From Holophagaceae bacterium (GTDB taxonomy: Bacteria; Acidobacteriota; Holophagae; Holophagales; Holophagaceae), in NCBI GenBank assembly GCA_021286765.1, contig JAJTBS010000002.1:434001-498000 (forward strand): a stretch of DNA of 64,000 nt, written 5' to 3'. Positions 4,025 through 24,932 of this stretch are shown piece by piece. The position numbers and the translations under genes were made by a program. The notes beneath the pieces were generated by a model. The model did no database searches. It was given only the letters and a program-made list of their open reading frames with translations, and was not told where the DNA came from. Each line of letters starts with the position of its first letter. The first letter of the stretch is position 1.

Positions 4025-4026
4025 AC

Positions 4027-7000
4027 ATGTCCCAACACATCGAATGGCTGAACCTGATCGACCGCTCCGGCGCGTTCCTTGAGCCCGGCGTGCTGGACGA
4101 CGCGCTACCCCAGGGCCTGGAGGGCGTGGATTCCGAGCACCGTCGGAACCTCCTATCGGCCTACGACGAGTGGCGCGAGGCCGTGGATGCTTGCGACGCC
4201 GACGCCGAGGCACTCCATCGAGCCTGGATCGATTTCGTGCTCAAGGCGTTCCTGGAATACGACGATCGAGCCCTGCGGCGGGGTGAATCCGTCCCCGAGT
4301 CGCTCTCGTTGTCTGTGGCGGAACACGGCGGGATTGTCCGTCCTGGAATGGCAGTGATGAAGGGCGATTCGCCCCAACTCCTGATCGATGTGCTACCACC
4401 GGACACGGATCTCGAATCCATTCGCTCCTACGAGGGATGGAACACGAGCGCCCTGGACCGGATGATCGCCCTCTGCCGGGGAGCCAAGGTCACGATCGGC
4501 CTCCTGACGAATGGTGAACGCTGGCTGGTGGTCCACGTCCCCGAAGGTGGCACCGTGGGTCACGCCTCCTGGTACGGGCGGATCTGGAGACCCGAGCCCG
4601 TCACCCTTCGGGCCTTCCAGACCCTCCTTGGTGTCCGCCGCTGTTTCGGTCCCCAGGACAAGACGCTCCCGGCGCTCCTCGCGGCATCGCTGGAATACCA
4701 GGACGAGGTCACGGACACCCTCGGCCAGCAGGTCCGGCGAGCGGTGGAGGTGCTGATCCAGAGCCTCGACCGGGCGGATCACGACCGCCACGGTGAACTC
4801 CTCAGGGACGTGGAACCCCGCGAACTCTACGAGGCGGGTCTGACGGTCATGATGCGGTTCGTCTTCCTAATGTGCGCGGAAGAGCGTGGTCTGCTCCTCC
4901 TCGGCGAGGGAATCTACGACCAGAACTACGCCATTTCCACCCTGCGGTCCGAACTGAGGGAGTGGCAGAGTCGCCATGGGGATCAGGTCCTGGAACGCCG
5001 CCACGACGCCTGGTCCAGGCTCCTGGCGACCTTCCGAGCCGTCTTCGGAGGGGTCACGCACGAGACCCTGAGAATGCCCGCCCTCGGAGGATCCCTCTTC
5101 GATCCGGATCGCTTCCCCTTCCTGGAGGGTCGTCCCAAAGGGAGTTCCTGGCGTCAGAGTATTGCCACCCCGCTGCCCATCGACAACCGCACGGTGCTGC
5201 TCCTCCTCTCCTCTCTTCAGGTGCTCGAACAGCGCCGGGGAGCGAGGTTGCTCTCTTACAAGGCTCTCGACGTCGAACAGATTGGCCATGTCTACGAAGG
5301 CCTCCTAGAATGCACCGTCCAGCGCCTCCCGGAGATCACGCTCGGACTAGAGGGTGCTTCCAGCGCCAAGGACCCGAACCTCTCCTTGGTGGATCTCGAA
5401 CGAGCCCAGCAGGAGGGCGAAGCCTCCGTCCTGGCCCTGCTCACCGAGGTCACCGCACGATCGGAATCGGCTCTGCGCCGTGCGATGGGCCGGGAGGTGG
5501 AAGAGGCCTTCGAAAGTCGGTTGCTCCTAGCCTGTGGTAGCGAAACCGAGTTGCTCCGACGAGTGAAGCCATGGGCGAACCTGCTCCGGAAGGACATCTG
5601 GGACCATCCACTGGTCTATCGAAGGGAAGCCTTCGCCGTAACCCTCGGCAGCGACCGCCGAGAAACGGGGACCCACTACACCCCAAAATCCCTCACAGAA
5701 CAAATCGTCCGGACCACACTCGAACCCTTGGTCTATACGGGGCCCTCGGATGGAAAGCCCCGAGAGGAATGGATTCTCAAGAAACCTCAGGAACTCCTAG
5801 ACCTCAAGGTATGTGACCCAGCTATGGGATCGGGGGCCTTCCTTGTGCAGGTGTGCCGCTACCTCGGGGACCGGCTGGTGGAAAGCTGGGGACTCGAAGA
5901 AGTCTCCGGAAAAGCGATCACGGTCGATGGCGAGGTGGTTGACCGCCTTGACTCAAGCGAATCCATGCCCATTGATCCAGAGGAGCGGATCATCCTCGCC
6001 CGACGGCTTTTGGCCGAGCGATGCCTCTACGGTGTCGACATCAACCCCATGGCAGTGGAACTAGCCAAACTCTCCATTTGGCTAGTAACCCTTGCCAAAG
6101 GAAGGCCCTTCGGGTTCCTTGACCACAACTTGAAATGCGGCGACAGCCTGCTCGGCATCCATCGGCTAGAGCAATTAGCTAACTTTTCCATGAATCCTAC
6201 TGGCGAGGTCCAGGGTCGCCTCTTTGGCCAGGGGCTCGGACCAGCCATTCAGACAGCAATCGAGCTCCGTTCGCGCTTGCGGGAGATTCCGATCCGCGAC
6301 ATCCATGATGTAGAAGCAATGAGATGTCTTGATATTGATGCACGTTGTCGATTAGAAGTGGCCGAATGTATGGCTGACGCTTTAATTGGAGAAATAGTTG
6401 CAGCAAATGATAATAATGCAGTAATAGAGAAAACGATGGCATGGCTGGCTATCCAGGCCGAGCAGGTAATTGATGGCGACAGAGAGATTCTAGCTTCGTT
6501 GAGAATAAGGTCCATTGAAGCGCTTTCATTTGGCCTGCCGCATGGAAAAGTTTCTCGTCGCCCCTTCCATTGGCCGTTAGAATTTCCAGAAATTTTCCCA
6601 AATGGTTTTGATGCAATAGTAGGAAATCCACCCTTCCTAAAAGGTACAGCTATCGGAAAATCCTTCGGTGCCTGCTATCGTAGTTATATTGGTAATTTTG
6701 TAGGAGAAGGGAAAAAGGCTAGTTATGCTGATTTATGTGCATTTTTCATTTTAAGGGCTTTGACTGTTACAAAATCGCATGGTGTAGTCGGAATGATTGC
6801 TACTAATACCATTTCTCAAGGTGATACTCGCGAGATGGGTCTTGATCAAATATTTTTGAACAATTCAAAACCATATTGGGTTAAAACAGATATTAAATGG
6901 AGTGGATCTGCAAATGTTATTGTGTCAGTAGTTATTATAAGAAAGGATGATGGCTGGAATGGTATTCGGATTTTAAATGAAAAAGAAGTTGTTGGTATAA

Positions 7001-8316
7001 CCAAATTTTTAACAGAAGGTTGTGACGAGATTTTTATCCCGCAAAAACTGGTAAGGAATAAAGATATTGCGTTCAAGGGGTCTACGACTGGATGCAAGGG
7101 CTTCGTGCTTGAATCCAAAGAGGCAGAGCAAATTATCGCAAATGATAATAGATATTCAGAAGTGATCCAAAAATTTATCGGAGGTCAAGATTTTAATAGC
7201 TCACCACAAATGACTACCGATAGATGGGTAATAAATTTCAAAGATTGGACATATGAACAAGCATCGCAATTCCCAATTTGCATTAATATATTAAAAGAAC
7301 GAGTAAAGCCATATTTTGATTCTCGTACAGGCCAGATTCACGAAACTGATTTTTGGAAATTTTCAGACAAAAGGCTTGAAAGCTATAAATCAATATCAAA
7401 ATTCAATAGAGTATTGTTTCATGCGTTTACAAGTAAGCATTTGGCATTTGGTTTTGTTGGCACCGGTATGGTTTACTCTGCCCCACATGTTGTTATTGCG
7501 CTTCAAGGGTTTGAACATTTTGCAGTGCTTCAATCTTCTTTTCATATGATATGGGTTCTAGAGCTTTGTTCGACGATGGGTGTCGGAATTCGATATGCTC
7601 CATCTGATTTGCTTGAAACATTCCCATTCCCAAGTTGTATTATTGGGGATAAAAAAACAGAATCTAGCACTGCATGTTTATCATCACATGGTGAAAAATA
7701 CTACAAAGCTAGATCGAAATTTATGGAAGAACAAAAGATTGGATTAACTGATTTTTATAATATATTTCACAATAAAAATGAAAATGGATCGGATATTTCG
7801 GAAATTCGCAAAATTCAAACAGATATTGACTACGAATTGTGTAATTTATATTCAATAAATATTGATCTTAATCATAATTTTGTAAATACAAAAATTGGAA
7901 TTCGCTATCTTCCTGAAGGCGGCACGCAGAAACTAATTTTTTCAAAACTGGCAGAATTGAATCAACAAATATTCAAAACTGAGTTGCGCGAAGGGATGCA
8001 TTCTCAACTTGATTCAACTACATCCACACGTGCAACCCGATCAAGATTGGCAAAGGAGCCGATTTCGAACCAACCTTCGCTTGGCTTAGAAATTAATAAT
8101 GAAACTCTCACTCATGGAATGATTCCTGGGGCAACTATTCTAAGTTTTCTCCATGCCAACAATGGTTGGTGGTCGAAGTCTGAGATCATCGCTGCAAACA
8201 ACATCAGCGATGGGCAATGGAATGTGGCCATCGCAGACTTGATCGCGAGAGGTCTCGTGGAACGCCAGGGCGAGCGACGGGGTGCAAGGTATCGGGGAAT
8301 AGAGGTTCGCTCGTGA
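4027..8316 (+). CDS. drmMI: DISARM adenine-N6 DNA methyltransferase DrmMI
   Basis: This is a 1429-aa class I methyltransferase of the kind that marks host DNA in class 1 DISARM. SAM-binding motif I (DPAMGSGAFLVQ) lies near residue 600 and catalytic motif IV (GNPPF) near residue 867, as in N6-adenine enzymes of the Eco57I/PglX type. A long N-terminal region of about 590 residues precedes the catalytic domain. A target-recognition region covers roughly residues 1000-1340, and a winged-helix-like tail ends the protein. The ATG at 4027 is preferred. An in-frame TTG at 4021 would overlap the drmD stop but has no better ribosome site. Bases from about 6320 to 8160 are strikingly AT-rich compared with both flanks, while the reading frame stays intact. 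The downstream endonuclease gene starts on the stop codon. Confidence 0.88.
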   Translation: MSQHIEWLNLIDRSGAFLEPGVLDDALPQGLEGVDSEHRRNLLSAYDEWREAVDACDADAEALHRAWIDFVLKAFLEYDDRALRRGESVPESLSLSVAEHGGIVRPGMAVMKGDSPQLLIDVLPPDTDLESIRSYEGWNTSALDRMIALCRGAKVTIGLLTNGERWLVVHVPEGGTVGHASWYGRIWRPEPVTLRAFQTLLGVRRCFGPQDKTLPALLAASLEYQDEVTDTLGQQVRRAVEVLIQSLDRADHDRHGELLRDVEPRELYEAGLTVMMRFVFLMCAEERGLLLLGEGIYDQNYAISTLRSELREWQSRHGDQVLERRHDAWSRLLATFRAVFGGVTHETLRMPALGGSLFDPDRFPFLEGRPKGSSWRQSIATPLPIDNRTVLLLLSSLQVLEQRRGARLLSYKALDVEQIGHVYEGLLECTVQRLPEITLGLEGASSAKDPNLSLVDLERAQQEGEASVLALLTEVTARSESALRRAMGREVEEAFESRLLLACGSETELLRRVKPWANLLRKDIWDHPLVYRREAFAVTLGSDRRETGTHYTPKSLTEQIVRTTLEPLVYTGPSDGKPREEWILKKPQELLDLKVCDPAMGSGAFLVQVCRYLGDRLVESWGLEEVSGKAITVDGEVVDRLDSSESMPIDPEERIILARRLLAERCLYGVDINPMAVELAKLSIWLVTLAKGRPFGFLDHNLKCGDSLLGIHRLEQLANFSMNPTGEVQGRLFGQGLGPAIQTAIELRSRLREIPIRDIHDVEAMRCLDIDARCRLEVAECMADALIGEIVAANDNNAVIEKTMAWLAIQAEQVIDGDREILASLRIRSIEALSFGLPHGKVSRRPFHWPLEFPEIFPNGFDAIVGNPPFLKGTAIGKSFGACYRSYIGNFVGEGKKASYADLCAFFILRALTVTKSHGVVGMIATNTISQGDTREMGLDQIFLNNSKPYWVKTDIKWSGSANVIVSVVIIRKDDGWNGIRILNEKEVVGITKFLTEGCDEIFIPQKLVRNKDIAFKGSTTGCKGFVLESKEAEQIIANDNRYSEVIQKFIGGQDFNSSPQMTTDRWVINFKDWTYEQASQFPICINILKERVKPYFDSRTGQIHETDFWKFSDKRLESYKSISKFNRVLFHAFTSKHLAFGFVGTGMVYSAPHVVIALQGFEHFAVLQSSFHMIWVLELCSTMGVGIRYAPSDLLETFPFPSCIIGDKKTESSTACLSSHGEKYYKARSKFMEEQKIGLTDFYNIFHNKNENGSDISEIRKIQTDIDYELCNLYSINIDLNHNFVNTKIGIRYLPEGGTQKLIFSKLAELNQQIFKTELREGMHSQLDSTTSTRATRSRLAKEPISNQPSLGLEINNETLTHGMIPGATILSFLHANNGWWSKSEIIAANNISDGQWNVAIADLIARGLVERQGERRGARYRGIEVRS
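6320..8160. other. Low-GC segment covering the target-recognition half of drmMI
   Basis: Codons switch from GC-rich third positions to AT-rich ones shortly after 6300 and switch back near 8165, without a break in the reading frame. The segment starts just before motif IV and includes the region expected to contact the DNA target. This is a reading of base composition by eye; edges are good to about 100 bases. It suggests a module taken from a low-GC donor. Confidence 0.8.
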
Positions 8317-9512
8317 AAGTTGTTCCTTTCGATGAACTCGCCACCTCCGATCTGATCGTAGACGCCATCTATGAAAGCAGCAGGGATGGCCAGATGGCTG
8401 GCGAACCCATCGCCAAGCTCCTTCCAGGGTCTGGTAATCAAGGCGGGTTCAGGGCCGCAGGTCGCGGTGAGGAGAAGAATTGGGTCGTCCTGACCACCAG
8501 CGGCGAAGACCCCGACTGGCCGGATGTCCTGAATCTGAACACGGGCGAGTTCGTCTACTTTGGTGACAACAAATCGCCTGGTCATGAACTTCATGACACG
8601 GCCCGCGGTGGGAATGCGATACTCCGCAGGGTTTTTGCGCGACTTCACGATCAAGGCAATCCACGGCAAGGAATTCCGCCCTTTTTCATTTTCCAGAAAA
8701 ACCCGACGCAACATGGTGCTAGGTCGGTTCGCTTCCTGGGTGTTGCTGCTCCTGGTTTTCCAGGCATGTCTGCCCTGGAGGAGTTAATTGCAGTGTGGAA
8801 GGCGACCAGCGGGGAACGATTCCAGAATTACCGCGCTGTTTTCACCGTTTTGGATATCCCTGTGGTGCAGCGGGCCTGGCTTGTCGATCTTGCGAACGGA
8901 GTTCACGACTCTGTCCACGCTCCAAACGCTTGGCGCTCCTGGTTGCGAAATGGGCGATATCACGCCCTAACGGCTGATCCCACAACCACCATTCGATCCA
9001 TCGAACAGCAAGCCCCCAGTGGAGCCCTCCAGGTCGAGATCCTCAGGACAGTATGGGAATATTTTCGGAATACTCCGCTGGCCTTCGAAGTCTTTGCTGC
9101 TCGGATATACCAATTGCTCGACCACCGGGTGGTCATCGATGAGATCACCAGAGGATCCGTGGACGGCGGAAGGGACGCTGTTGGTCGCCATTTGTTGGGC
9201 CTGAATGAGGATCCCGTATATGCGGAATTTTCATTGGAAGCAAAATGTTACCGACCACCGATCGATGGGCATTCGGCGAATACCGTCGGTGTGAAGGAGG
9301 TATCACGCCTTATTTCCAGGATCCGGCATCGTCAATACGGCGTACTCGTGACGACCTCCGTCATTGCTCGCCAGGCCTACGAGGAGGTACGGGAGGATCG
9401 GCATCCAATCATCTTCATTGCAGGAAGGGACATTGCTGAAATCCTCCTGCGAAATGGATATTCCACGGCGGACCTCGTCCGGCGGCTACTCCTCGATGAG
9501 TTTCCGTTATGA
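8313..9512 (+). CDS. AspBHI-like modification-dependent (type IV) restriction endonuclease
   Basis: This 399-aa protein fits the AspBHI pattern: an SRA-like N-terminal reader of modified cytosine followed by an Mrr-type nuclease. The N-terminal part carries SGEDPDWPD and YFGDNKSPGHELHDT-like text (FGDNKSPGHELHDT at 83-96) and RFQNYRAVFTVLD (169-181). The catalytic part shows Asp288 in GGRD and the Glu309-x-Lys311 pair in LEAKCY, the PD-(D/E)xK arrangement. The start is GTG 8313, which overlaps the drmMI stop (TCGTGA), so translation is coupled. An upstream start at 8217 would only add a shadow of drmMI. Its place inside a DISARM operon is unusual. A likely role is attack on phage DNA carrying modified cytosine, which ordinary restriction would miss. 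That role is inferred. Confidence 0.8.
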   Translation: MKVVPFDELATSDLIVDAIYESSRDGQMAGEPIAKLLPGSGNQGGFRAAGRGEEKNWVVLTTSGEDPDWPDVLNLNTGEFVYFGDNKSPGHELHDTARGGNAILRRVFARLHDQGNPRQGIPPFFIFQKNPTQHGARSVRFLGVAAPGFPGMSALEELIAVWKATSGERFQNYRAVFTVLDIPVVQRAWLVDLANGVHDSVHAPNAWRSWLRNGRYHALTADPTTTIRSIEQQAPSGALQVEILRTVWEYFRNTPLAFEVFAARIYQLLDHRVVIDEITRGSVDGGRDAVGRHLLGLNEDPVYAEFSLEAKCYRPPIDGHSANTVGVKEVSRLISRIRHRQYGVLVTTSVIARQAYEEVREDRHPIIFIAGRDIAEILLRNGYSTADLVRRLLLDEFPL

Positions 9513-9592: not shown

Positions 9593-12500
9593 GTGGCAAA
9601 GGATCAGCAAAAGACCGAGAAGAAGGAACAGCCCACTAGAACTCCCAATGCATGGCTCGTTGAAGCAAAGGAGGGGATGGATCCCGGCATCCATCTGTTG
9701 GATATCCAGGCTGATGGCCTTGAGGACTATGGAATCGAGGATCTGGATGGAATCCTGCTCATCGACGCCTCCAAACAGATCGTCGGGCTCGCCCGTGTGT
9801 TTCGGATGCGACGGTTCGAGGGGCGGACCCGGGTCTACTTCGAGAGTCACCAGCGCTTCGATCCGCCCATCGATCCTTCTGGGCTTGGCATGACCCTGCC
9901 CGCCATGGTCGGGGTGCTCACGCGCCTGGACTGGCCCACCTTCGAGGGCATCGTCCAGGGCATCACGGGGGCTGCCTTCGCCTCCTTGCCGCCCATCAGT
10001 GGGAACACACCCGCCGAACAGGCCTACTTCCGCGAGCTGCTCCACGACGCCGTCCGTGACGACCTCCTCGGCCCGGCAGGTGGGCCGAGGGAAGAAATCC
10101 TCGGCATGAGCGTGCGGGACCGCTATGTGGTGGGGAAGCTCGCGCCGAGGGAAACGGCGATCGATGGCGAGCAGATCGAGGAATTGGGCGGTGGTGCGGG
10201 GAAGGTGGAACCGGAGGATGGCGGCAAGGAAATCGACGCCTCCACGAACACGTCGCTCGTCCCCTCCTCCCTCGGGTTCACCTTCTGCGTAGACCAGGAG
10301 ATCCGGGACCTGATGATCGAAGCCCGATGGGGACGGTACGAACGCGCCGAAAGTTCCGAGCCCGACCCCAAGACGGGGAAATCCAGACCCGTATGGAAGC
10401 GGATTCCGAGTGGTGGAACACTCACGCTGAAGCTGGTCAATGGCCCCGTGGCCCCCATGTCTCCGGACGGGGACTGTCCGGAGATCGTCATTCAGGGCTC
10501 GATCCGTCAGGCCGGGAACGGGGATCGCTTGATCACCCTCTTCCTCGTGAACGCACAGGCGCAGCCGAAGAGCAACCCGGACCAGGCGTGGATCTTCCAA
10601 CCAGAGGTCATCGCCCGTCATCCCGAGGGGGCTCCGGTCTTCAGGCGCAGACCTGTGCTCGGGGATGGGGACCCGGACGAGGAGCGGACCGCCCTGGAAA
10701 TGATCTATCGCCGCCGCGTGGAGTTCGCCGTAGGCCACGGGGTCTCGATCCACGCTGAAGTGGCCATCGAAACTCCCGATCGCGCTTCGGGAGTTCGGAC
10801 CATCGTCATGCCCGGATACGAGGTCGGAGTCACCGAGACTCCCGGCCTTGAACCCGAAGACCGACCCGCCATGCAGAAGCTGGTGAGGGATGGGTTCCTG
10901 GACATGCGGATCCTGGCGGGTCTCGACCAGAAGGAACTGGGCGTCGTCCTCGCCATCCTCGCCAATGACTACGAGACCTGGATCGGCGAACAGCGCAACC
11001 GGATCGGCGCGAGTGTGGTCGGGTTCGATGCGGCTGCAACCGAAGCGCTGCTGCGTTGCGACAAGGTCTTGGAGCGCCTCCGCGAAGGCATCCATGTATT
11101 GGGTAGCGATGCCAGAGCATGGAAGGCCTTCAAGCTTGCCAACCTCGCGATGGCGGACCAGCGTGTCCGCAGCATCTACGCGCTTGAGCACCGAAGGGAT
11201 CCCGCGAAACAGATCGACCCCAAGGACTTCGACATCCCCAAGAATCGATCCTGGCGACCCTTCCAGCTAGCCTTCGTCTTGCTCTCCATCCCTGCCCTCG
11301 CAGACCCCACCCATCGGGACCGGACCGATCCGATCGAGGCCATTGCCGACTTGCTCTGGTTCCCGACGGGCGGTGGTAAGACCGAAGCCTACTTGGGGGT
11401 GGCCGCGTTCACGATGGTCATCCGCCGCCTCCAGGGGATCGTGGGAGGCTTGGACGGCACACGAGGCCTAGCCGTCATCATGCGTTACACCCTGCGCCTG
11501 TTGACGCTCCAACAGTTCCAGCGTGCCACGACCCTCATCTGCGCCCTGGAGATGCTGCGGAAGGACGACCCGGAACTGGGCGGTACCAGATTCACGATCG
11601 GCCTCTGGGTGGGGCAGAAGGTCACCCCCAACACGACCGAACAGAGTCACCGCGCCATACTGGCGATCCGGAACGACAAACGTCCGGAGTCCTCCACTCC
11701 AGCGCAGTTGACCACCTGTCCATGGTGTGGCGAGGAGATCGAACCGAAGCGGGACATCGAGGTCGACACCGAACTCGGCATCACCCGGATTTTCTGTGGC
11801 GACAAGCTGAGTCAATGCCCCTTCTCAAGGAATGTGGACGGCAGTCCCGGTATTCCTGTGCTTGTCGTGGACGAAGAGATCTACCACCGGCCACCGAGCA
11901 TGCTGATCGCCACGGTGGACAAGTTCGCCATGATGGCCTGGAAGGGGGACACCCGGACTCTCTTCGGGCGTGCCACCCGCGAATGCCCGCGCCACGGACT
12001 GATATGGCCAGGGGCCGAATGCAACGGGGAGCACAAGAAGAAGAAAGACCTCCCGGCCACGACGGGCGTGGACCTTCCGGGGCTGAGACCCCCCGATCTG
12101 ATCATTCAGGACGAGTTCCACCTCATCAGCGGCCCCCTGGGCACCATGGTCGGGCTCTACGAAACGGCGGTGGACGAACTCTGCGCCTGGAAGATCGGCG
12201 AGAAGGTCGTACGTCCGAAGGTCGTGGCCTCCTCTGCTACGGTCCGGAAGGGCAAGGAACAGGTCAAGAACGTGTTCCTGCGGGAGATCTCGGTCTTCCC
12301 ACCCCACGGACTGGATGTTGAGGACAACTTCTTCGCCGTCCAGCGTGGAACGGATCGGAAGCCGGGCCGCCAATACGTGGGGGTCTGTGCGCCGGGGAGT
12401 TCCAGACCCGCCGTCCTGATCCGCCTCTACGTGGCCCTGCTCACCGCAGGCAAAGCCTTGTTCGACCGTTTCGGGCCAGCGGCGGACCCCTACATGACCG

Positions 12501-13471
12501 TGGTCGGGTACTTCAATTCCCTTCGGGAGTTGGGCGGCATGAAGCGGCTCGCCGAGGACGATGTCCAGACCCGAGCCTTCCGTGTCCAACGCAGCGACGT
12601 GAGGCGACCGGGATTGGCTCAGCGGAATGTGAATCAGATCGAGGAACTCACGTCCCGCGTGTCCAGCAAGGACATCCCGAAGAAGCTCGACCAGCTCGAA
12701 GTGAAGTTCAAGACCCAGTGGGCCAAGGGCGAGACGCGAGCCATCGATGTGGTGCTCGCCACCAACATGCTTTCGGTGGGTGTCGACGTGAACCGCCTCG
12801 GCCTCATGGCCGTGAACGGTCAGCCGAAGAGCACGGCGGAGTACATCCAGGCCACGAGCCGTGTGGGACGTGCCTTCCCCGGCATCGTGTTCACGGTCCT
12901 CGTGTGGTCGAGACCTCGCGACCTCTCCCACTACGAGACCTTCGAGCACTATCACGCGACCTTCTACAAGCACGTAGAAGCCCAGTCGGTGACGCCATTC
13001 TCGCCCCGCGCCATGGACCGTGGCCTCACCGGAGCCATGGTCAGCCTGCTCCGTGGGCGGGAAACCCCCTTCACGCCGAACCTGGGTGCCCAAGAGGCCA
13101 CCACTCCCTCTCGCCCTGAGTTGCAGCAGGCGGCGAAGGTTTTCTTGGACCGCGCCTGGAAGGCTACGAATCAGAGCAGCATCAAGGATCTCGCGGACCT
13201 CATGGTCGGGGAGAGGTTGGACCAGTGGGCCAAGGAGGCCCAGCGACCCAATCGCCAGTTGGGGTACGAGCGACCCGGTTCTGGCGGAACCGTTGCTCCC
13301 CTGCTGAGCAAACCCGGCTTCGAACCCTGGGGGACATTCACTGTTCCGATGTCCATGCGTGAAGTCGAGCCGGGTGTCCGGCTCCAGATGGAGACCCGGG
13401 GCATCGCAGATGCACCACCTTGGCGGCCTCCGGTCAAGCCTGCGACCGATCAGACCGGAGGTGAGGAATGA
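9593..13471 (+). CDS. drmA: DISARM helicase-domain protein DrmA
   Basis: This 1292-aa protein is the core DISARM helicase-like subunit, which works with DrmB at DNA ends or ssDNA of the invader. The P-loop FPTGGGKTEAYLG is near residue 592 and a Walker B of IIQDEFH near residue 840. The C-terminal lobe carries LSVGVDVNRLG and QATSRVGR, around 1065-1095. Cysteine pairs (CPWCGEE, and others up to about residue 815) between the two lobes could bind zinc. GTG 9593 is the chosen start, with GGAG nine bases upstream. The 80-bp gap after the endonuclease gene is the only real gap in the operon. It overlaps drmB by ATGA. The first 550 residues have no motif I recognise. Confidence 0.88.
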   Translation: MAKDQQKTEKKEQPTRTPNAWLVEAKEGMDPGIHLLDIQADGLEDYGIEDLDGILLIDASKQIVGLARVFRMRRFEGRTRVYFESHQRFDPPIDPSGLGMTLPAMVGVLTRLDWPTFEGIVQGITGAAFASLPPISGNTPAEQAYFRELLHDAVRDDLLGPAGGPREEILGMSVRDRYVVGKLAPRETAIDGEQIEELGGGAGKVEPEDGGKEIDASTNTSLVPSSLGFTFCVDQEIRDLMIEARWGRYERAESSEPDPKTGKSRPVWKRIPSGGTLTLKLVNGPVAPMSPDGDCPEIVIQGSIRQAGNGDRLITLFLVNAQAQPKSNPDQAWIFQPEVIARHPEGAPVFRRRPVLGDGDPDEERTALEMIYRRRVEFAVGHGVSIHAEVAIETPDRASGVRTIVMPGYEVGVTETPGLEPEDRPAMQKLVRDGFLDMRILAGLDQKELGVVLAILANDYETWIGEQRNRIGASVVGFDAAATEALLRCDKVLERLREGIHVLGSDARAWKAFKLANLAMADQRVRSIYALEHRRDPAKQIDPKDFDIPKNRSWRPFQLAFVLLSIPALADPTHRDRTDPIEAIADLLWFPTGGGKTEAYLGVAAFTMVIRRLQGIVGGLDGTRGLAVIMRYTLRLLTLQQFQRATTLICALEMLRKDDPELGGTRFTIGLWVGQKVTPNTTEQSHRAILAIRNDKRPESSTPAQLTTCPWCGEEIEPKRDIEVDTELGITRIFCGDKLSQCPFSRNVDGSPGIPVLVVDEEIYHRPPSMLIATVDKFAMMAWKGDTRTLFGRATRECPRHGLIWPGAECNGEHKKKKDLPATTGVDLPGLRPPDLIIQDEFHLISGPLGTMVGLYETAVDELCAWKIGEKVVRPKVVASSATVRKGKEQVKNVFLREISVFPPHGLDVEDNFFAVQRGTDRKPGRQYVGVCAPGSSRPAVLIRLYVALLTAGKALFDRFGPAADPYMTVVGYFNSLRELGGMKRLAEDDVQTRAFRVQRSDVRRPGLAQRNVNQIEELTSRVSSKDIPKKLDQLEVKFKTQWAKGETRAIDVVLATNMLSVGVDVNRLGLMAVNGQPKSTAEYIQATSRVGRAFPGIVFTVLVWSRPRDLSHYETFEHYHATFYKHVEAQSVTPFSPRAMDRGLTGAMVSLLRGRETPFTPNLGAQEATTPSRPELQQAAKVFLDRAWKATNQSSIKDLADLMVGERLDQWAKEAQRPNRQLGYERPGSGGTVAPLLSKPGFEPWGTFTVPMSMREVEPGVRLQMETRGIADAPPWRPPVKPATDQTGGEE

Positions 13472-15318
13472 GTACGATTCCCGTCGGAGAAGTGAGACCC
13501 AGCCAGTTGCTCTGGACCTATGGGCCAGGCGCTCTGGTGGACCTGCCCAACCTGTCCGTGGTCACCATGGGGCTCCACCAGTGGGATACGGCCCGGTGCC
13601 GCCGAGTCGAAGAGGTGCGGCTCCTCGATGCCGTGAGGCGGAGGCTCGGCCCACAAGTCGAGAAGCTGCTGATGCCGCCCGTGGTCGAGGACGACTCGAT
13701 CGATCCCTTCTCGCCCGAGGCTCTGGTCGGTGTGCCGGTGAAGCCCTTCCCTCGCTGGCTGCGCTGCGTGAAGTGCCAGCTACTGGCAGAAGTCGATTCC
13801 GGACTGTTCCGCGTAGTCGAGAACAGGTTCCGCCCAGAGCGGACCCAATACCTCCACGTCAATTGCCCGAAGGGGGACGGGCGTGATCAGGACGCGGTGC
13901 CAGCCCGCTTCCTGCTGGCGTGCCGCAACGGCCACCTGGACGACTTCCCCTGGCACTGGTTCGCGCACGGGGGGCCCTCGGATTGCCGGGGCACGCTCCG
14001 ATTCCTGGAAGAGAGCGCTTCGCTCCAGACCCAGGACCTGTTCGTGCGCTGTGACGACTGCGGGTCCAGCCGGTCCTTGGCCCAAGCCTTTGGAGCCCGC
14101 GCCGCAGGCTTCCTTCCTGGATGCCGGGGACGGCATCCGCATCTCGACACCTTCGACGAGGGCTGCGACCAGTCCCCGCGAGCCGTGCTGCTTGGGGCAA
14201 CCAACAGTTGGTTCGCTGTGAACATGTCGGCCCTGGCAATACCCCCCGGATCCAATCCGCTGGAAGACCTTTTGGGAGAAAATTGGGACACGTTCAAGGA
14301 CACAGTGTCCCTCGACGAATTGAGGGACGGCCTAAAATGGCTCAAACGAAGTGGATCTCTGCCTTGCATCGAGAAATTCGAACCTGAGGACATCTGGTCC
14401 GCCATCGAGGCTAAACGGTCCGGCACCACTGTCCCCACTGGAATGAGTGAAGTCGATCTCAAGCGACCCGAGTGGATCGTACTCACGGGTCCTAACCCCA
14501 GGACGGACTACCCGCACTTCCTGGCTTCTCCGGTCCCTGTTCCTCCAGAGTTTTCCTCGAAGCTGCAAACCGTGCTGTTACTGGAGCGTCTTCGCGAGGT
14601 TAACGCGCTGATCGGCTATACCCGCGTGGAAGCCCCAGAGGAGTCGAGCAACCCAGAAGACAGGGCTCCCATGGCTGCGCTGACGAAGGGCAGCCCGACA
14701 TGGATTCCGGCCACCGAAGTGCATGGAGAGGGGATCTTCATTCGCTTCCATGAGGATGTACTGGCTGCATGGGAAGGCTGGACGGGAGTCCTCGCAAGGG
14801 ACGCCAAACTCCAAGAGGGCCACCGGGGGTGGAGGAGTTCTCGGAAACTCTCGCCTGACGAAGGCTATCCCGGCATCCGATACGCTCTCCTGCACACGTT
14901 CTCCCACCTTCTGATCCGCGAACTCGCCTTGGAATGCGGATACAACGCCGCGAGCATCCGCGAGCGGATCTATGCATCGAAGGATGGAGATCCCATGGCC
15001 GGGATCCTGATCTACACGGCGGCTGCCGATTCCGATGGAACACTGGGAGGCCTCGTCCAACTTGGCAAGCCTGAGAACCTCGGCAGGCTGATCCGGCAGG
15101 CACTCCAAAGGGCGCGGATCTGCTCCTCGGATCCACTCTGCTCGGAACACGATCCTGGCAAGGACCGCTCGATCCACGCCGCCGCCTGCCACGCCTGCGG
15201 ATTCGTGGCCGAGACTTCGTGCGAAAAGGGGAATCGCTACCTCGATCGCGCCCTGTTGTTGAAGACCTTCGAGACCACGGATGCAGCCTTCTTCGGGGCA
15301 GAGGAGGACCCAGCATGA
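13468..15318 (+). CDS. drmB: DISARM DUF1998-domain protein DrmB
   Basis: This 616-aa protein is the DrmB subunit, which pairs with DrmA. The N-terminus (VGEVRPSQLLWTYGPGALVD) is typical of the family. A first zinc-type CxxC (CVKCQ) lies near residue 97, with more cysteines in CRNGHLDDFPW and CDDCGS. The C-terminal DUF1998 region has LLHTFSHLLIREL, TLGGLVQLG and the cysteine set CSSDPLC and CHACGF. The ATG overlaps the drmA stop as ATGA, and drmC starts on the drmB stop in the same way, so the drmA-drmB-drmC block is translationally coupled. Length and motif order match intact DrmB proteins. No sign of decay is seen. Confidence 0.88.
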   Translation: MSTIPVGEVRPSQLLWTYGPGALVDLPNLSVVTMGLHQWDTARCRRVEEVRLLDAVRRRLGPQVEKLLMPPVVEDDSIDPFSPEALVGVPVKPFPRWLRCVKCQLLAEVDSGLFRVVENRFRPERTQYLHVNCPKGDGRDQDAVPARFLLACRNGHLDDFPWHWFAHGGPSDCRGTLRFLEESASLQTQDLFVRCDDCGSSRSLAQAFGARAAGFLPGCRGRHPHLDTFDEGCDQSPRAVLLGATNSWFAVNMSALAIPPGSNPLEDLLGENWDTFKDTVSLDELRDGLKWLKRSGSLPCIEKFEPEDIWSAIEAKRSGTTVPTGMSEVDLKRPEWIVLTGPNPRTDYPHFLASPVPVPPEFSSKLQTVLLLERLREVNALIGYTRVEAPEESSNPEDRAPMAALTKGSPTWIPATEVHGEGIFIRFHEDVLAAWEGWTGVLARDAKLQEGHRGWRSSRKLSPDEGYPGIRYALLHTFSHLLIRELALECGYNAASIRERIYASKDGDPMAGILIYTAAADSDGTLGGLVQLGKPENLGRLIRQALQRARICSSDPLCSEHDPGKDRSIHAAACHACGFVAETSCEKGNRYLDRALLLKTFETTDAAFFGAEEDPA

Positions 15319-16058
15319 CCCTGTGGGATGTCATCGCTGCCGCCGCCAAGGAGTTGCACCCGGATCGCATGGAGGCGGCAGCGCGAGCGGCGGAGTCCCG
15401 CAATCCGGCGGGATTCCGAACTTGGGCACAGGGGGCTGGGGCTCTGGTTCTCACCCAGGTCGGCAAGGCGTGGTTGGAGTGCCCAGGAACGACTGGGAAG
15501 GAAATCGCCTCTGCCCTCCGAGCTGCGGGCTCCACGGCTCGAGCCATTCGTGCGCAATCGCGTGTGGATCTCGTCTGGAGTGGTCCTGATACGCGCCTCG
15601 TCCCCGTTCGCAGGACGGACCAGGTTCTCCTGGAACTGATCGAAACCTCAGAGCGAACCCTCTTCCTGGTCAGCTTCGTGGCCTACAACGTGGAGAGTCT
15701 CCTGATGGCCCTCAAGAAGGCCCTTGCGCGAGGCGTAGAGGTCTCCTTCCTCCTCGAGGCCCCGGAGGCAGGGCACATCTCCATCGACTCGCCTGGACTC
15801 ATCCGAGGGGCCTTGCCAGCGGCCAAGGTCTATCAGTGGGAACCCAAGGAAGCGGTGCCGGGTGGACAGGGCGCAGTCCACGCCAAATGCCTGCTGGCAG
15901 ACGGAAAGGCAGCCTTCATCACCAGTGCCAACCTCACCAACGCCGCCATGGAGAAGAACATGGAACTCGGCGTGAAACTCACGGGTGGTGCGGTCCCGGA
16001 ACAACTGAGGGCACACTTCGAAGCCCTGATCGCAACGCGGGAGATCGTGCCGGTCTGA
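15315..16058 (+). CDS. drmC: DISARM phospholipase-D-fold protein DrmC
   Basis: This 247-aa protein closes the class 1 DISARM operon. One HxK(x4)D motif is present in VHAKCLLADGKAAF near residues 188-201, followed by TSANLT. The protein has a single catalytic motif, so it would need to dimerise to form the usual two-histidine active site. PLD-fold nucleases of this kind cut DNA without metal, but DrmC has been reported as non-essential in the studied DISARM system. ATG 15315 overlaps the drmB stop (ATGA). Longer in-frame starts upstream are shadows of drmB. Confidence 0.85.
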   Translation: MTLWDVIAAAAKELHPDRMEAAARAAESRNPAGFRTWAQGAGALVLTQVGKAWLECPGTTGKEIASALRAAGSTARAIRAQSRVDLVWSGPDTRLVPVRRTDQVLLELIETSERTLFLVSFVAYNVESLLMALKKALARGVEVSFLLEAPEAGHISIDSPGLIRGALPAAKVYQWEPKEAVPGGQGAVHAKCLLADGKAAFITSANLTNAAMEKNMELGVKLTGGAVPEQLRAHFEALIATREIVPV

Positions 16059-16204
16059 GTATCGAGTCGGCTTTCTGGACTCTCTAGGATTGTTGACGCG
16101 TAGACTTCCTCAATCGCACACAGCATTTCGTTGCCGACACCTTTCGGACATGATTGAACCGATTTCGAGATAGAGGCGCTCAGCAACTTGTAGCGGAGGA
16201 ATCC

Positions 16205-17584
16205 ATGTGCCCTTCCAACTCAACCAACGCGCAAGGCTCAAACTCTCTTTTGGCTTGGTGTTCTGCCTGCTTCAAGAAGACCGAACACGCCCGCGTCGAG
16301 GGCAATACATTCTCGCGGAATGTCTATGAATGCCAAGGATGTCACCGGAGGACCCTCCAGTGCAGGTATTGCAGCAGCATGGCTCTGGGCGGTGACAAGT
16401 GGGATGACGAATGCTGTGCAGAGCACGATGGCTCCATCGCCTCGTTTGCCAAGTTGAATATGAAGCTGAAAGAGATCTCCGAATTCGAGCAAATCTTTCA
16501 ACGGGATTCCGTCAATATGGTCCGCATTGGCAAATATGCGGCCTGTGCGGTCGGAGGGGCTGCGGTAGCCCTCCCAGTTGCAATCCTTGCTGCACCAGCC
16601 TTGGCCGCAGCCGCCGGCTCAGCAGGCCTCCTCGGTGCTGCGGGGACTGGCACCGCCATCTGTGAACTTTCAGGCGCAGCGCTTACCAGCGCCTCTCTGG
16701 CCGCTGTTGGAGGTGGGACGATGGCGGCTGGAACCGCCGTTATCACCGCTGTTGGAGCAGCTTTAGGGGCCACCCAGGGTGGGCTGATTGCAAATTCCTA
16801 CTTCGGTGACATCAAGGGGTTCGCAATCCGACGACTAAGGCATGGAACCAAACATGGCGTCATCGTCGTGAATGGATTCTTGTCCGAGAAGGGCAATGAT
16901 ACGGATGACTGGGAGCGCACTCTGAGTCAGTATCACTTGCCCGATGCTTGGTACCACCTGGATTGGGAAGCCAAGCGCCTCAGGGACCTTGGATCCATGG
17001 CAACCACTTCATTTGGGAAGTTGAAAAACAGCGTGGCGATAAATACTGCCGCAAAGCGTGCTGCCAAGACTGCGGGGAAAAAAATCGCACCTGCATCGGC
17101 ACTCACCCTGGCTGCGGACCTCGTGGACAACCCATGGCATGTGGCAATGTTCCGGGCTCAGCAAACCGGAATTCTGTTGGCTGAGGCCATCTCAAGGACA
17201 ACGGGGTGGACGTTCACTTTGGCTGGACACTCCCTTGGCGCTCGCGTGATCTATTTCGCCCTTGAAGCTCTTTCAACTCAACGCAGAAAGCCGATCAGAG
17301 ATATCTACTTGCTTGGGGGAGCCGTCGATCGTAGTGACGAGAAGGGGTGGTCAAAAGCGGAAAAGCCTGTTCGCGGCATGATCTACAACTGTTTCTCCAA
17401 GAACGATGCGGTTCTTGGAACCATTTACCGAACTGCCAATGGATTCATGAGCGATCCCATCGGATTCGACTGCATCATTCATCCCAGTCACAAGATTCTT
17501 AATTTTGACTGCACTGATCTCGTGCCGGGTCATATGCAATGGAAAGAGCATTTTGGAGACATCATCGATCAGTTGAACGCTTGA
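16205..17584 (+). CDS. DUF726-type alpha/beta-hydrolase with cysteine-rich head and glycine-rich membrane region
   Basis: This 459-aa protein has three visible parts. Residues 19-71 hold paired cysteines (C19/C22, C43/C46, C53/C56, C70/C71), probably a zinc-bound module. Residues 113-195 are rich in Gly and Ala, with no charged residues apart from one Glu, and look like membrane-inserting helices or a glycine zipper. The rest is a lipase-like hydrolase with the nucleophile elbow GHSLG (Ser343). Asp401 in KNDAVL and His443 in PGHMQW are candidates for the rest of the triad. The region around VIVVNGFLSE fits DUF726, the family of human TMCO4. ATG 16205 is chosen because GGAGGA lies seven bases upstream. 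It lies 146 bp after drmC on the same strand. A phage-triggered membrane lipase is a reasonable guess, not a known function. Confidence 0.7.
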   Translation: MCPSNSTNAQGSNSLLAWCSACFKKTEHARVEGNTFSRNVYECQGCHRRTLQCRYCSSMALGGDKWDDECCAEHDGSIASFAKLNMKLKEISEFEQIFQRDSVNMVRIGKYAACAVGGAAVALPVAILAAPALAAAAGSAGLLGAAGTGTAICELSGAALTSASLAAVGGGTMAAGTAVITAVGAALGATQGGLIANSYFGDIKGFAIRRLRHGTKHGVIVVNGFLSEKGNDTDDWERTLSQYHLPDAWYHLDWEAKRLRDLGSMATTSFGKLKNSVAINTAAKRAAKTAGKKIAPASALTLAADLVDNPWHVAMFRAQQTGILLAEAISRTTGWTFTLAGHSLGARVIYFALEALSTQRRKPIRDIYLLGGAVDRSDEKGWSKAEKPVRGMIYNCFSKNDAVLGTIYRTANGFMSDPIGFDCIIHPSHKILNFDCTDLVPGHMQWKEHFGDIIDQLNA

Positions 17585-18327
17585 ACATAGAACTCTGGCG
17601 CTCCATCTAGGAATGCGATCATTGGATTCTGAGAAGCAATGGGCATTCCTCGATTGGGCGCGTGCGCTCGACACGAATCAGTCCCGCCAGGGACGCCCCG
17701 AAATCCTACGGATTCGTAGACCAGTAATTTGTCGGCCCTGACAAACCCCGCCGTGGGGATCAGGCTGCCGTGGGGGCATGCTGAGGGCTTCTTCCGGCTT
17801 CGAGTCGGACCAACAGGCCCAGGACGATCTTCCTGGGCGCGCCCACCAGAAGGCGCAGGAGCGCCCTGAGGCGGGCCAGGATCTTCCTCAGGTTGTGGCC
17901 GGCGTCGCAGAGGAGGGCGTTGGTTGCATCTCCTCCCATCTTTTGGAGGAAGTTCGCTCTCGGTGCCCGAAGGGGATTTGGACCCCTATTTTCGTTTCGG
18001 GGGGGGGCTGCTGATACCAAGGCAATAAAATAAGCCTAATTAATACCAACCTTAGCATGCGAATCTAAAGATTGGGTTGTTTTCGTTGACCCTTCTTGAT
18101 TCCTGGCACCTTGGGTATACCGCAGGACCCAGCGGGTGATCGAATCCTTTCCAATCATTTTCGCGAAATAAAAAATGTGATCGTCTGAAACATTTCAGTC
18201 GTTCAGGCCTTCAGCAGGCACTCTCATTACTGTTCATTAAGAACTTGCTTGAAATCGACAGATTCGTAAAATGGAACCTGCATAGGATGGGGATCCGCGG
18301 CTATCGACTCCTTTCAACGGAGCCGTT
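17585..18327. other. Intergenic stretch with a transposase remnant
   Basis: This 743-bp stretch holds no intact gene. Its middle (17760-17960) is a decayed transposase end. A small TTTGTC/GACAAA hairpin is near 17728-17746. A possible weak promoter for the next gene (TTGCTT at 18245, 16 bases, TAAAAT at 18267) lies near the right end. I see nothing else. Confidence 0.5.
17760..17960 (-). pseudogene. IS5-like transposase, C-terminal remnant
   Basis: The minus-strand translation reads FLQKMGGDATNALLCDAGHN, then a leucine/arginine-rich helix (RKILARLRALLRLL). This matches the C-terminal end of IS5-group DDE transposases, where an RNxLxGxxGDxINAxLxxAGxN-type motif comes before a final helix. Nothing upstream of about 17960 on this strand continues the transposase: the DDE residues and N-terminus are gone. 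No terminal inverted repeats were found. It marks past IS activity at the border between the DISARM block and the next accessory genes. Confidence 0.6.
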
Positions 18328-20027: not shown

Positions 20028-22361
20028 ATGCTTCTTCTGGCCAAAACCAATGAACAGAAGCCCTCCTCCTTGCCAGCCCAGGTGGAATACATATTCGGGC
20101 ATCTAGCACATACCGCCGAGGCCGGCCCCTTCATGGAGGTCGAGGGCTACCTAGACCAAGCATTCCAGGTGAAACCCCTGCTCTCTCATCCTGATCTGTT
20201 CAGCCGAGTGGGGTGGGATGGAAGCGGCCCCCTGCCGCCTTCTTTAGTTCGAGGCCTTCTCCATGGCCAGGACCTACATGGAAACCAGTTGTCGCACCCC
20301 CGCCCAGGCGGTCATGGAGTCCAGCTTGGGAAGGAAATCATCATCCCCTTCCCGTCTGAACTCTCAGAGTTGCTGTATCGCCAACCGCCGCAGATCGCCT
20401 ACGCAATCGTGACGGAGGTCTTTCGGGAGCTCGTGGGCCTCATCGATGATCAGGCTGTCCGGGTCCGGGTTGGCCACGGTGAGCAGGAATGGCGGGAGGC
20501 ACAGTGCTTGACCCTCGGGTACCCGCATTTTTTAAATCACCGTGGTGAACCGGAAGTGCACCTTCACGGCTGGACTTTTGCGCCGGCACTTGATCCGGCG
20601 GGACAGTGGCGCACGCGTGACAGCGCAGCATTTTTAAGGGATCTTCAGGGTCGCCATCTGGATTTGGAACTGGCGACGCAGGCAAGCGGGCGACGGGCCC
20701 TGACTGATCGCCTGGTCGAGGCCTGCCGAGCCTGGGTCATCAATGTCAATCTGTCCTACCGGTTCGCGTCCCAGGAGGGGCGAGTTCCCCACGGCGCGAC
20801 GGTCTCTGTTCCAGGATTGGTGATCGCTGCCGGTGAAACCAAGACAGAGCGGCATGCCCAGATTGTTGCTGCCCAACACGCCAAGGCCATCCTGGGTGTC
20901 CAGGCACCCACCAGGACCGAACTCCGGTGGCTCTTGGCTCACCCTGGGCAGCCTTTGGAGGTAATTCCTAGCAGGCCATCCAAACCCCTCCTCACCAAGC
21001 TCCACACCCTCCGGTTGGTCGATGAGAGCGACCGCTTGCTTCCAAATGACGGTCTGCGCCAAGCGCTGGCGTCCGTTGCTTCTCGTCTGGAGATTGCTGA
21101 GGTGCACCTCGATGCGTGCACCAGCCTGCCCGGAAGCTTCGTCGGGGCGCAGAAGGTCATTCAGGAACGCCGCAGCGAACTGCTAGATGCCTTGGGCCTG
21201 CCCATAAGGGGTCCATCGCCGGAAGCGATTACCACCTGGCACGAGGACTACCTCAGCGCACTGGCATGGGCGGGTCGTCCTGGTCCATCTCCGCCCCAAG
21301 ACCCCGATCGCCCTTCCTGGGTCCTGCTTCGCAACCTCCGAACCGCTGGATTCATCAGCCCGAAACCCTCAGGAGAAAGAGATGGCTACCAACTCACCGA
21401 TGCAGGCCGAACCAAGCTACAGCGAACTTCAATGGCCGGACCATCGCTGGTCGCTGCTGAGCGCTCAGGCCTGGGTGCGCGGCTTGCAGGAGGTTCAGGT
21501 CCCCGAATTCACGGAATGGACGGCGGAGGAGTTGGCCGCCAGAAAGCAGACGCTTCCAACCCTGGACCCCAAGGTGGTTGGCGTGACGAAATACCAGCTC
21601 GAGCTCCAGGCCGCTGGCTTGGAATGGGAGTGGGCACTCCAGTCCCAGATGCACGACCAGCGGTGGAAGGCTGGCTATCGCACGGATTACACCGTGGCCT
21701 GGCAGCCGGTGACCTTCGGGGAGAAGGCCGCAGAATCCAAGCCTGGCCCGGACCACATGCTGATCCTGGTCGCTGCTCACCAGATCACGCCCATGCTGGA
21801 GCAGCTCGCCTCTTCGATGCTGGTGCTCCAGCCTGGCACGGTCGTCCAGAAGGACTCCAAGGCGGTCATCGAACTCATGCCTGGCCCCTGTCTCACCCTG
21901 GTACAGGGCTTCCTCACGGTTCTAGCACACGTTCCTCTGGAAAGCCTGCCAGTGCTTCCCCTGGCCGAACCAGCGTCCTCGTTTCAGCTTCAGGCCCAGG
22001 CGGAGATCGCCGCCGCACGAGACTCCACGCAGCGACAACTGGGGGCCGGGAGCTACTGGATACCACAGGTTCACGCTCCCCTTACCACATCCGTGCAGCG
22101 GTATTAGAGCGCCCGCAGCTCCGGATAGGCTCCCTGCCGAGCTGGCTGACAGCCATGCTGGACTCTCCGCTGGCCGAATACGATGCGCGCAGGATGCTCC
22201 GGGGAAGAGGCGGCCTGAATGCCGGTGTAGTGGGCGGAGTGCCCGGATGGGAGCCGACGCCTTCCCAGCGCTGGGACCAGGACCAGGCCAACAACCCCAA
22301 AGCACCCTCGGCGGCCAACCCTTCCGGCCAGCAACCCTCCTTCCGCCCTCGGCTGCCATAG
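20028..22361 (+). CDS. TrwC-like (MobF relaxase-like) protein, with an open C-terminal extension
   Basis: The frame encodes 777 aa. Residues 1 to about 240 resemble the relaxase domain of TrwC-type proteins: a Tyr near position 21, SLVRGLLHGQDLHGNQL, a SAPKS-like segment, and a histidine motif VHLHGW followed by an RTRDSAAF segment. The full three-histidine metal site is not evident, so it is divergent or inactive. Residues 300-465 look like a winged-helix pair ending in GYQLTDAGRTKLQ. From about residue 465 (near 21420) the composition is that of a shadow frame, because the next gene (21382-22107) is read in another frame here. Between 22108 and 22361 the frame again looks coding. The true C-terminus is therefore uncertain. 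GGAGCG sits five bases before ATG 20028. Confidence 0.5.
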   Translation: MLLLAKTNEQKPSSLPAQVEYIFGHLAHTAEAGPFMEVEGYLDQAFQVKPLLSHPDLFSRVGWDGSGPLPPSLVRGLLHGQDLHGNQLSHPRPGGHGVQLGKEIIIPFPSELSELLYRQPPQIAYAIVTEVFRELVGLIDDQAVRVRVGHGEQEWREAQCLTLGYPHFLNHRGEPEVHLHGWTFAPALDPAGQWRTRDSAAFLRDLQGRHLDLELATQASGRRALTDRLVEACRAWVINVNLSYRFASQEGRVPHGATVSVPGLVIAAGETKTERHAQIVAAQHAKAILGVQAPTRTELRWLLAHPGQPLEVIPSRPSKPLLTKLHTLRLVDESDRLLPNDGLRQALASVASRLEIAEVHLDACTSLPGSFVGAQKVIQERRSELLDALGLPIRGPSPEAITTWHEDYLSALAWAGRPGPSPPQDPDRPSWVLLRNLRTAGFISPKPSGERDGYQLTDAGRTKLQRTSMAGPSLVAAERSGLGARLAGGSGPRIHGMDGGGVGRQKADASNPGPQGGWRDEIPARAPGRWLGMGVGTPVPDARPAVEGWLSHGLHRGLAAGDLRGEGRRIQAWPGPHADPGRCSPDHAHAGAARLFDAGAPAWHGRPEGLQGGHRTHAWPLSHPGTGLPHGSSTRSSGKPASASPGRTSVLVSASGPGGDRRRTRLHAATTGGRELLDTTGSRSPYHIRAAVLERPQLRIGSLPSWLTAMLDSPLAEYDARRMLRGRGGLNAGVVGGVPGWEPTPSQRWDQDQANNPKAPSAANPSGQQPSFRPRLP
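21382..22107 (+). CDS. Hypothetical protein overlapping the relaxase-like gene
   Basis: The 241-aa product starts at ATG 21382 with GGAGAAAGAG just upstream. Its amino-acid composition is balanced (MATNSPMQAEPSYSELQWPD...), unlike the Gly/Ala/His/Pro-rich overlapping frame, so this is the more believable gene between 21382 and 22107. It has no signal peptide and no membrane segment; I recognise no family. After its stop (TAG 22105-22107) a coding-like stretch goes on in the minus-one frame (RPQLRIGSLPSWLTAMLDSP and onward) up to 22361. That stretch may be the real C-terminus of this gene, reached by a frameshift, or a separate 68-aa gene from ATG 22155. The context is an accessory element. 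Confidence 0.55.
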   Translation: MATNSPMQAEPSYSELQWPDHRWSLLSAQAWVRGLQEVQVPEFTEWTAEELAARKQTLPTLDPKVVGVTKYQLELQAAGLEWEWALQSQMHDQRWKAGYRTDYTVAWQPVTFGEKAAESKPGPDHMLILVAAHQITPMLEQLASSMLVLQPGTVVQKDSKAVIELMPGPCLTLVQGFLTVLAHVPLESLPVLPLAEPASSFQLQAQAEIAAARDSTQRQLGAGSYWIPQVHAPLTTSVQRY

Positions 22362-24853: not shown

Positions 24854-24857
24854 CTGT

Positions 24858-24932
24858 TGGTAGTCCCAAGGGGAATCGAACCCCTGTTCCCGCCGTGAGA
24901 GGGCGGTGTACTAACCGCTATACGATGGGACC
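24858..24932 (-). tRNA. tRNA-Glu (anticodon CTC)
   Basis: A full cloverleaf is readable. The acceptor is GGTCCCA with TGGGACT, the D-arm contains AGCGGTTAGT, and the anticodon stem CCGCC/GGCGG has loop CTCTCAC (anticodon CTC). The T-arm is AGGGG-TTCGATT-CCCCT. The 3' CCA is encoded. It follows tRNA-Gln by 17 bases in the same transcript. Confidence 0.93.

Follow-up and report, generated by a model that had tools for sequence, protein, structure and literature searches.

A DUF726 hydrolase with a cysteine-rich head, preferentially located in bacterial defence islands: a possible abortive-infection effector

Introduction

Lipase-type effectors are known in defence, the phospholipase effectors CapV and CapE of CBASS being of the patatin type, and the Tle lipase effectors of the T6SS are GxSxG lipase-like hydrolases. 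PMC11878206 describes DUF726 as a eukaryotic protein family. By title and abstract, no report on bacterial defence and no phage-protection test concerning DUF726 was found in the open-access literature mentioning the family, the accessible passages of which concern eukaryotic proteins; nor did the open-access literature or the PADLOC families show a bacterial branch of DUF726 with a Cys head and a tie to defence islands. The hydrolase family is already known, and what may be new here is this branch.

The gene considered here lies in a 64,000-nucleotide stretch of DNA from a Holophagaceae bacterium, hereafter the window. The reading that we favour, with a probability of about 0.42 for the whole chain of events, is that of a stand-alone, horizontally transferred, defence-associated DUF726 hydrolase that would cleave membrane lipids upon infection, thereby causing arrest or death of the cell.

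The gene and its DISARM neighbourhood

The start of the gene was placed at ATG 16205, which has GCGGAGG 5 nt upstream, in preference to TTG 16154, and residues 112-458 of the product match DUF726 (PF05277) with E=3.7e-43 and 148 bits, the Pfam gathering cut-off being 22.6. Seven pairs of relatives yield dN/dS values of 0.11-0.18, indicating that the gene is under purifying selection, and it encodes a maintained enzyme rather than a decaying one. The gene and the context genes that precede it are:

872-4024, + strand: DrmD-type SNF2 helicase (DISARM)
4021-8316, + strand: DrmMI adenine methyltransferase (DISARM)
8217-9512, + strand: AspBHI-like methyl-directed restriction enzyme
9593-13471, + strand: DrmA helicase (DISARM)
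13468-15318, + strand: DrmB (DISARM)
15219-16058, + strand: DrmC PLD protein (DISARM)
16193-16199, + strand: Shine-Dalgarno-like GCGGAGG, 5 nt ahead of ATG 16205, read directly
16205-17584, + strand: coding sequence of 459 aa comprising a Cys/Zn head, a Gly/Ala-rich hydrophobic stretch and a DUF726 alpha/beta-hydrolase (ORF reading, Pfam)

The gene of the AspBHI-like enzyme interrupts the DISARM operon, following drmMI, whose end it overlaps, and preceding drmA.

The first-pass annotation had placed the gene directly after DISARM, and the presence of drmD, drmMI, drmA, drmB and drmC upstream bears this out. The stop of drmC at 16058 precedes ATG 16205 by 146 nt on the same strand and no terminator-like site was called between the two on the + strand, an arrangement that speaks for the DUF726 gene being a subunit or an accessory gene of DISARM. 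The specific link with DISARM implied by that annotation did not hold, however: among 396 genomes of the phylum, 31 have a match to the DrmA profile; leaving the present genome aside, about a dozen of these matches are strong (E<1e-100), but none of the genomes concerned has a DUF726 match, and no other examined relative was found to adjoin DISARM. The likeness to a DISARM gene is confined to adjacency and common strand at this locus, whereas DUF726 does not recur with drmA, drmB and drmC in independent genomes and is paired at other loci with other systems. Strong DrmA loci without DUF726 and the variety of its neighbours indicate a defence-island gene and not a DISARM gene; a place among the DISARM components is most improbable, and the candidate role of DISARM-specific effector was rejected on the same grounds.

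Distribution and mobility

The DUF726 gene is rare, patchy and horizontally transferred. Full-length relatives having all three parts were found by plasmid and genome scans in Vibrio, Burkholderia, Paraburkholderia, Alloalcanivorax, Colwellia, a Desulfocapsaceae bin and many Actinomycetota. A search through a phylum-wide sample of 396 genomes gave one clear match, that of the present genome, and two marginal partial ones, so that the question of housekeeping status raised by the first-pass annotation is answered in favour of a rare accessory gene; similarly, 346 sampled genomes of an actinobacterial class held one clear match besides the centre genome. Each of 22 genomes carrying the gene has a single copy. 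Relatives are also found on plasmids, two of which are conjugative by typing, and in a quick tree Heliobacterium groups with Vibrio and a Rhodococcus plasmid copy with chromosomal ones. The Heliobacterium copy (L012:9701-10300) is 5'-truncated: where the first part of the Cys head would be encoded, it has unrelated sequence that includes a stop. The possibility of a phage-borne gene was considered and discarded, as no match was obtained in phage records, viral contigs or IMG/VR.

In the present genome the gene is part of a 38-kb tRNA-Glu island whose right-hand boundary lies in the window:

24855-24901, strand not assigned: right-hand 47-bp direct repeat of the tRNA-Glu 3' end, island boundary (exact repeat)

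The left copy of the 47-bp repeat is found at contig position 420783 (G000:C6:420783, L053), 38,072 bp from the right one, and the cargo includes a tyrosine recombinase, HipA, a cytosine methyltransferase, a HEPN and GmrSD_N pair, DISARM and the DUF726 gene. A weak TrwC-relaxase-like protein (20028-22361, below the Pfam cut-off) adjoins an HTH_17 excisionase-like gene, which fits an integrative element. On the 3' side of the DUF726 gene an ORF of 86 aa (17760-18020, - strand), without a Pfam match, looks by eye like the C-terminal remnant of a transposase.

Association with defence islands

The gene is preferentially located in defence islands of varying content. The check suggested by the first-pass annotation, namely how often homologues lie in such islands, was carried out on whole-genome positions: N6_Mtase occurs within 10 kb of the DUF726 gene in 6 of 23 genomes, 0.19 being expected (P=5.7e-8); when the distance is widened to 20 kb, the figures are 9 of 23 observed and 0.37 expected (P=2.7e-10). 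For GmrSD_N at 20 kb they are 5 of 23 observed and 0.21 expected (P=3e-6). These P values are approximate, with genome sizes rounded and a few rows representing near relatives. The resulting enrichment of N6-methyltransferase and GmrSD genes is ~25-fold and extends over several phyla; the present genome counts in both enrichments through DrmMI and the GmrSD_N of the island, and without it 8 and 4 genomes, respectively, remain.

A defence-type gene, called by PADLOC, Pfam or record annotation, is found within ~10 kb at 17 of 26 loci, which is a hand count of chosen neighbours without a control of its own, the controlled test being that on the whole-genome N6_Mtase and GmrSD_N positions. The 17 loci are the window, L010 and the following:

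L004: CBASS, SLATT-RT and PDC-M27 neighbours
L005, L016, L017, L021, L025: Type I RM neighbours
L007 (Burkholderia), L017, L027: GmrSD neighbours
L008, L013: Leo-type dynamins and WYL regulators
L018: Zac neighbour
L023: Type III RM neighbour
L026: PDC-M11A neighbour
L028: IetA-like neighbour
L029: Type II methyltransferase neighbour

No defence neighbour was found at L012, L015, L019, L020, L022 (Rhodococcus), L030 and L052, the last of which is near carA. An all-against-all comparison of the flanking ORFs was also made with a fixed partner or antitoxin in mind, and none emerged; in the light of this lack of a constant partner the DUF726 gene would appear to be self-contained.

Mobile genes unrelated to defence travel in such islands as well, so that co-location may amount to hitchhiking, and this provides the chief rival of the favoured reading: the gene would encode a mobile esterase or lipase with a metabolic or lipid-remodelling role and no part in defence. 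Such an origin would suit both the integrase and the mixed cargo of the tRNA-Glu island and the loci devoid of defence neighbours, which count against our reading, and the eukaryotic DUF726 protein TMCO4 is tied to lipid handling through RAB18. It is at odds, on the other hand, with the strength and phyletic breadth of the enrichment beside N6-methyltransferase and GmrSD genes, with purifying selection and with the lack of a common metabolic neighbour, so that we regard mere cargo as rather unlikely, albeit a serious contender to the defence-associated hydrolase.

The cysteine head

The N-terminal part of the protein is marked by regularly spaced Cys and His residues:

16244-16474, + strand: Cys head, residues 14-90, a putative two-zinc domain with CxxC (19, 22), H28, CxxC (43, 46), CxxC (53, 56) and CAEH (71-74) (conservation, AlphaFold)

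That the protein possesses a multi-cysteine head, as read from the sequence in the first instance, is confirmed by the conservation of nine Cys/His positions, H28 included: C19, C22, H28, C43, C46, C53, C56, C71 and H74 are each at least 90% conserved in an alignment of 27 rows, and the eight belonging to the CxxC and CxEH motifs are near-invariant in these 27 sequences from several phyla. AlphaFold models of 24 sequences assign to the head a pLDDT mostly of 83-93, and a value of 84.7 is obtained when the head is modelled by itself. The head probably holds two zinc sites.

Known zinc folds were sought by PDB sequence and fold searches and set aside, the hits being at chance level only (ClpX zinc domain, E=0.19; Pol II subunit, E=2.8), and no PDB fold match was found for the modelled head. 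With matches at this level the fold suggested by the models is left undecided and is not claimed to be novel. The 396 genomes of the phylum contained no convincing case of the head fused to other effectors, the matches being weak.

The Gly/Ala-rich stretch and the membrane

The head is followed by a segment of unusual composition:

16526-16798, + strand: Gly/Ala-rich hydrophobic stretch, residues 108-198, resembling positions 66-169 of PDC-M09A (composition, PADLOC match)

The first-pass annotation took this stretch for a membrane region, and the claim holds in part. As to composition, residues 108-198 contain 53% Gly+Ala and two charged residues, and one segment, centred at ~117-137, reaches a Kyte-Doolittle value of 2.16 and is plausibly a membrane segment, the remainder staying at ~1.3-1.6; at least one segment above 1.6 is kept by nearly all relatives, L024 falling below this threshold. 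As to insertion, AlphaFold gives no support, the pLDDT being <50 for residues 117-188. In the Variovorax relative L013 most of the stretch is missing, head and triad being retained, and its gene (L013:10013-11077) represents a natural deletion variant for the stretch. Human TMCO4, the best-studied DUF726 protein, is reported in PMC10641524 and PMC11878206 to be diffuse until RAB18 recruits it to the ER and to have no predicted TM helices. In view of the low model confidence, of L013 and of the non-TM nature reported for TMCO4, all of which weigh against the favoured reading, and of the exception L024, we infer membrane association of the protein rather than assert it.

A motif of the type ASTGTAISxLSGAAxTNAxLAxLGGG recurs in otherwise unrelated proteins (window 16610-16790; L060:5925-6782; L061:5680-7053; L062:6217-7317), among them the PADLOC phage-defence candidate PDC-M09A, and from sequence resemblance it may constitute a shared hydrophobic module. 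Tracing of this module in plasmids and phages returned nothing, the low-complexity filter being the probable cause.

Tde1 of the T6SS and TelE of the T7SS are reported in PMC10240207 and PMC10434224 to have functional glycine zippers, and a stretch similar to the Gly/Ala one is present in L061, an ORF that is not a lipase and starts with a signal-like segment; the protein could accordingly be imagined as an antibacterial toxin aimed at neighbouring cells, that is a T6SS or contact-dependent lipase effector whose Gly/Ala stretch would serve as a glycine-zipper translocation element. This is highly unlikely, given that the protein carries no VgrG, PAAR, Rhs or LXG trafficking domain and has no recurrent immunity-type neighbour; neither an immunity gene nor a VgrG/PAAR partner recurs among the flanking ORFs compared, and none was detected in the window.

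The hydrolase domain

The C-terminal half contains the putative catalytic apparatus:

16817-17581, + strand: alpha/beta-hydrolase domain, residues 205-459 (Pfam, AlphaFold, Foldseek/VIA-align)
17231-17233, + strand: Ser343 codon, GHSLG nucleophile elbow (read directly, conservation)
17405-17407, + strand: Asp401 codon (conservation)
17531-17533, + strand: His443 codon (conservation)

The Ser343/Asp401/His443 triad, proposed from the single sequence, proved correctly numbered, and its three residues do not vary in any of the 27 sequences compared, which come from several phyla. In the models of 24 sequences the catalytic core has a pLDDT mostly of 80-95, with values <50 for most of residues 272-305, and by these models the domain is a lipase-like alpha/beta-hydrolase fold. 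No solved structure of any sequence relative was found. Comparison of the modelled domain with the PDB by VIA-align gave as best match the pancreatic lipase-related protein 2 (PLRP2; Z=13.1, rmsd 3.8 over 197 residues), followed by lipoprotein lipase (Z=13.0) and phospholipase A1 (Z=12.8), many other alpha/beta-hydrolases being nearly tied with these lipases; owing to these near-ties the modelled fold suggests, and does not fix, a lipase-type substrate class.

The breadth of ester substrates handled by this fold family leaves room for a non-lethal defence, our second-ranked rival, in which a change of the membrane or the cleavage of a non-lipid acyl ester (e.g., of a modified phage or host molecule) would block phage entry, replication or assembly while the cell survives. 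Anatomy and genomic context are the same as for the favoured reading; the head of the VIA-align list, made up of lipases and a phospholipase, argues against it, even if other hydrolases are nearly tied, and we consider this outcome distinctly improbable.

Proposed function

Taken by its parts, the favoured reading of a defence-associated lipid hydrolase makes the DUF726 protein probably a membrane-acting serine hydrolase and possibly an abortive-infection effector. The head, probably with two zinc sites, would be the regulatory or sensing part and the greasy Gly/Ala stretch would put the enzyme at the inner membrane; upon phage infection the hydrolase would cut an acyl ester, most likely of a membrane lipid, and the infected cell would cease to grow or die ahead of phage release. 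The logic would be akin to that of the CBASS phospholipase effectors, but with a single gene and an unrelated fold. A constitutively toxic lipase should need an antitoxin-like partner unless self-inhibited, and the lack of a shared one is a point against this scheme. It is doubtful whether one may go as far as to see here a one-gene anti-phage system whose two-zinc head senses infection and unleashes the DUF726 lipase on the inner membrane, in which case the TMCO4/Mil1 lipase family would join those eukaryotic protein families that already have an immune branch in bacteria.

Few defence-linked lipases have a built-in sensor, and those made up of one gene lend themselves to testing. The bacterial branch adds a candidate immune effector adjoining many kinds of defence system and, being compact and having a conserved triad and head, offers a tractable route to the chemistry of the family.

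Comparison with known systems

The closest relationship is with the DUF726 family proper (PF05277), including TMCO4 and yeast Mil1 (YFL034W), with which the protein shares a match at E=4e-43, the GHSLG elbow, the Asp and His residues and a Gly/Ala stretch covered by the Pfam model, whereas the bacterial branch described here is set apart by its additional Cys/His head and its location in defence islands.

The Gly/Ala-rich stretch aligns with PDC-M09A at E=8e-9 for the window and 5e-11 for Vibrio, but the match spans positions 66-169 of 282 only. PDC-M09A was dismissed as the same system: its full member L060 has neither hydrolase motif nor Cys head, and the next ORF is not lipase-like.

With the Tle effectors the protein has in common a GxSxG lipase-like hydrolase, from which it differs in that its gene has no trafficking partner or recurrent immunity gene. 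Finally, the proposed hydrolysis of membrane lipids by a defence-linked enzyme is the feature shared with the phospholipase effectors of CBASS; these have the patatin fold, whereas the DUF726 protein is a predicted alpha/beta-hydrolase with an Asp/His triad, matches DUF726 as its only Pfam family and is encoded by a single gene, with no CD-NTase in its operon, a cyclase being found near L004 only, several genes off and on the opposite strand.
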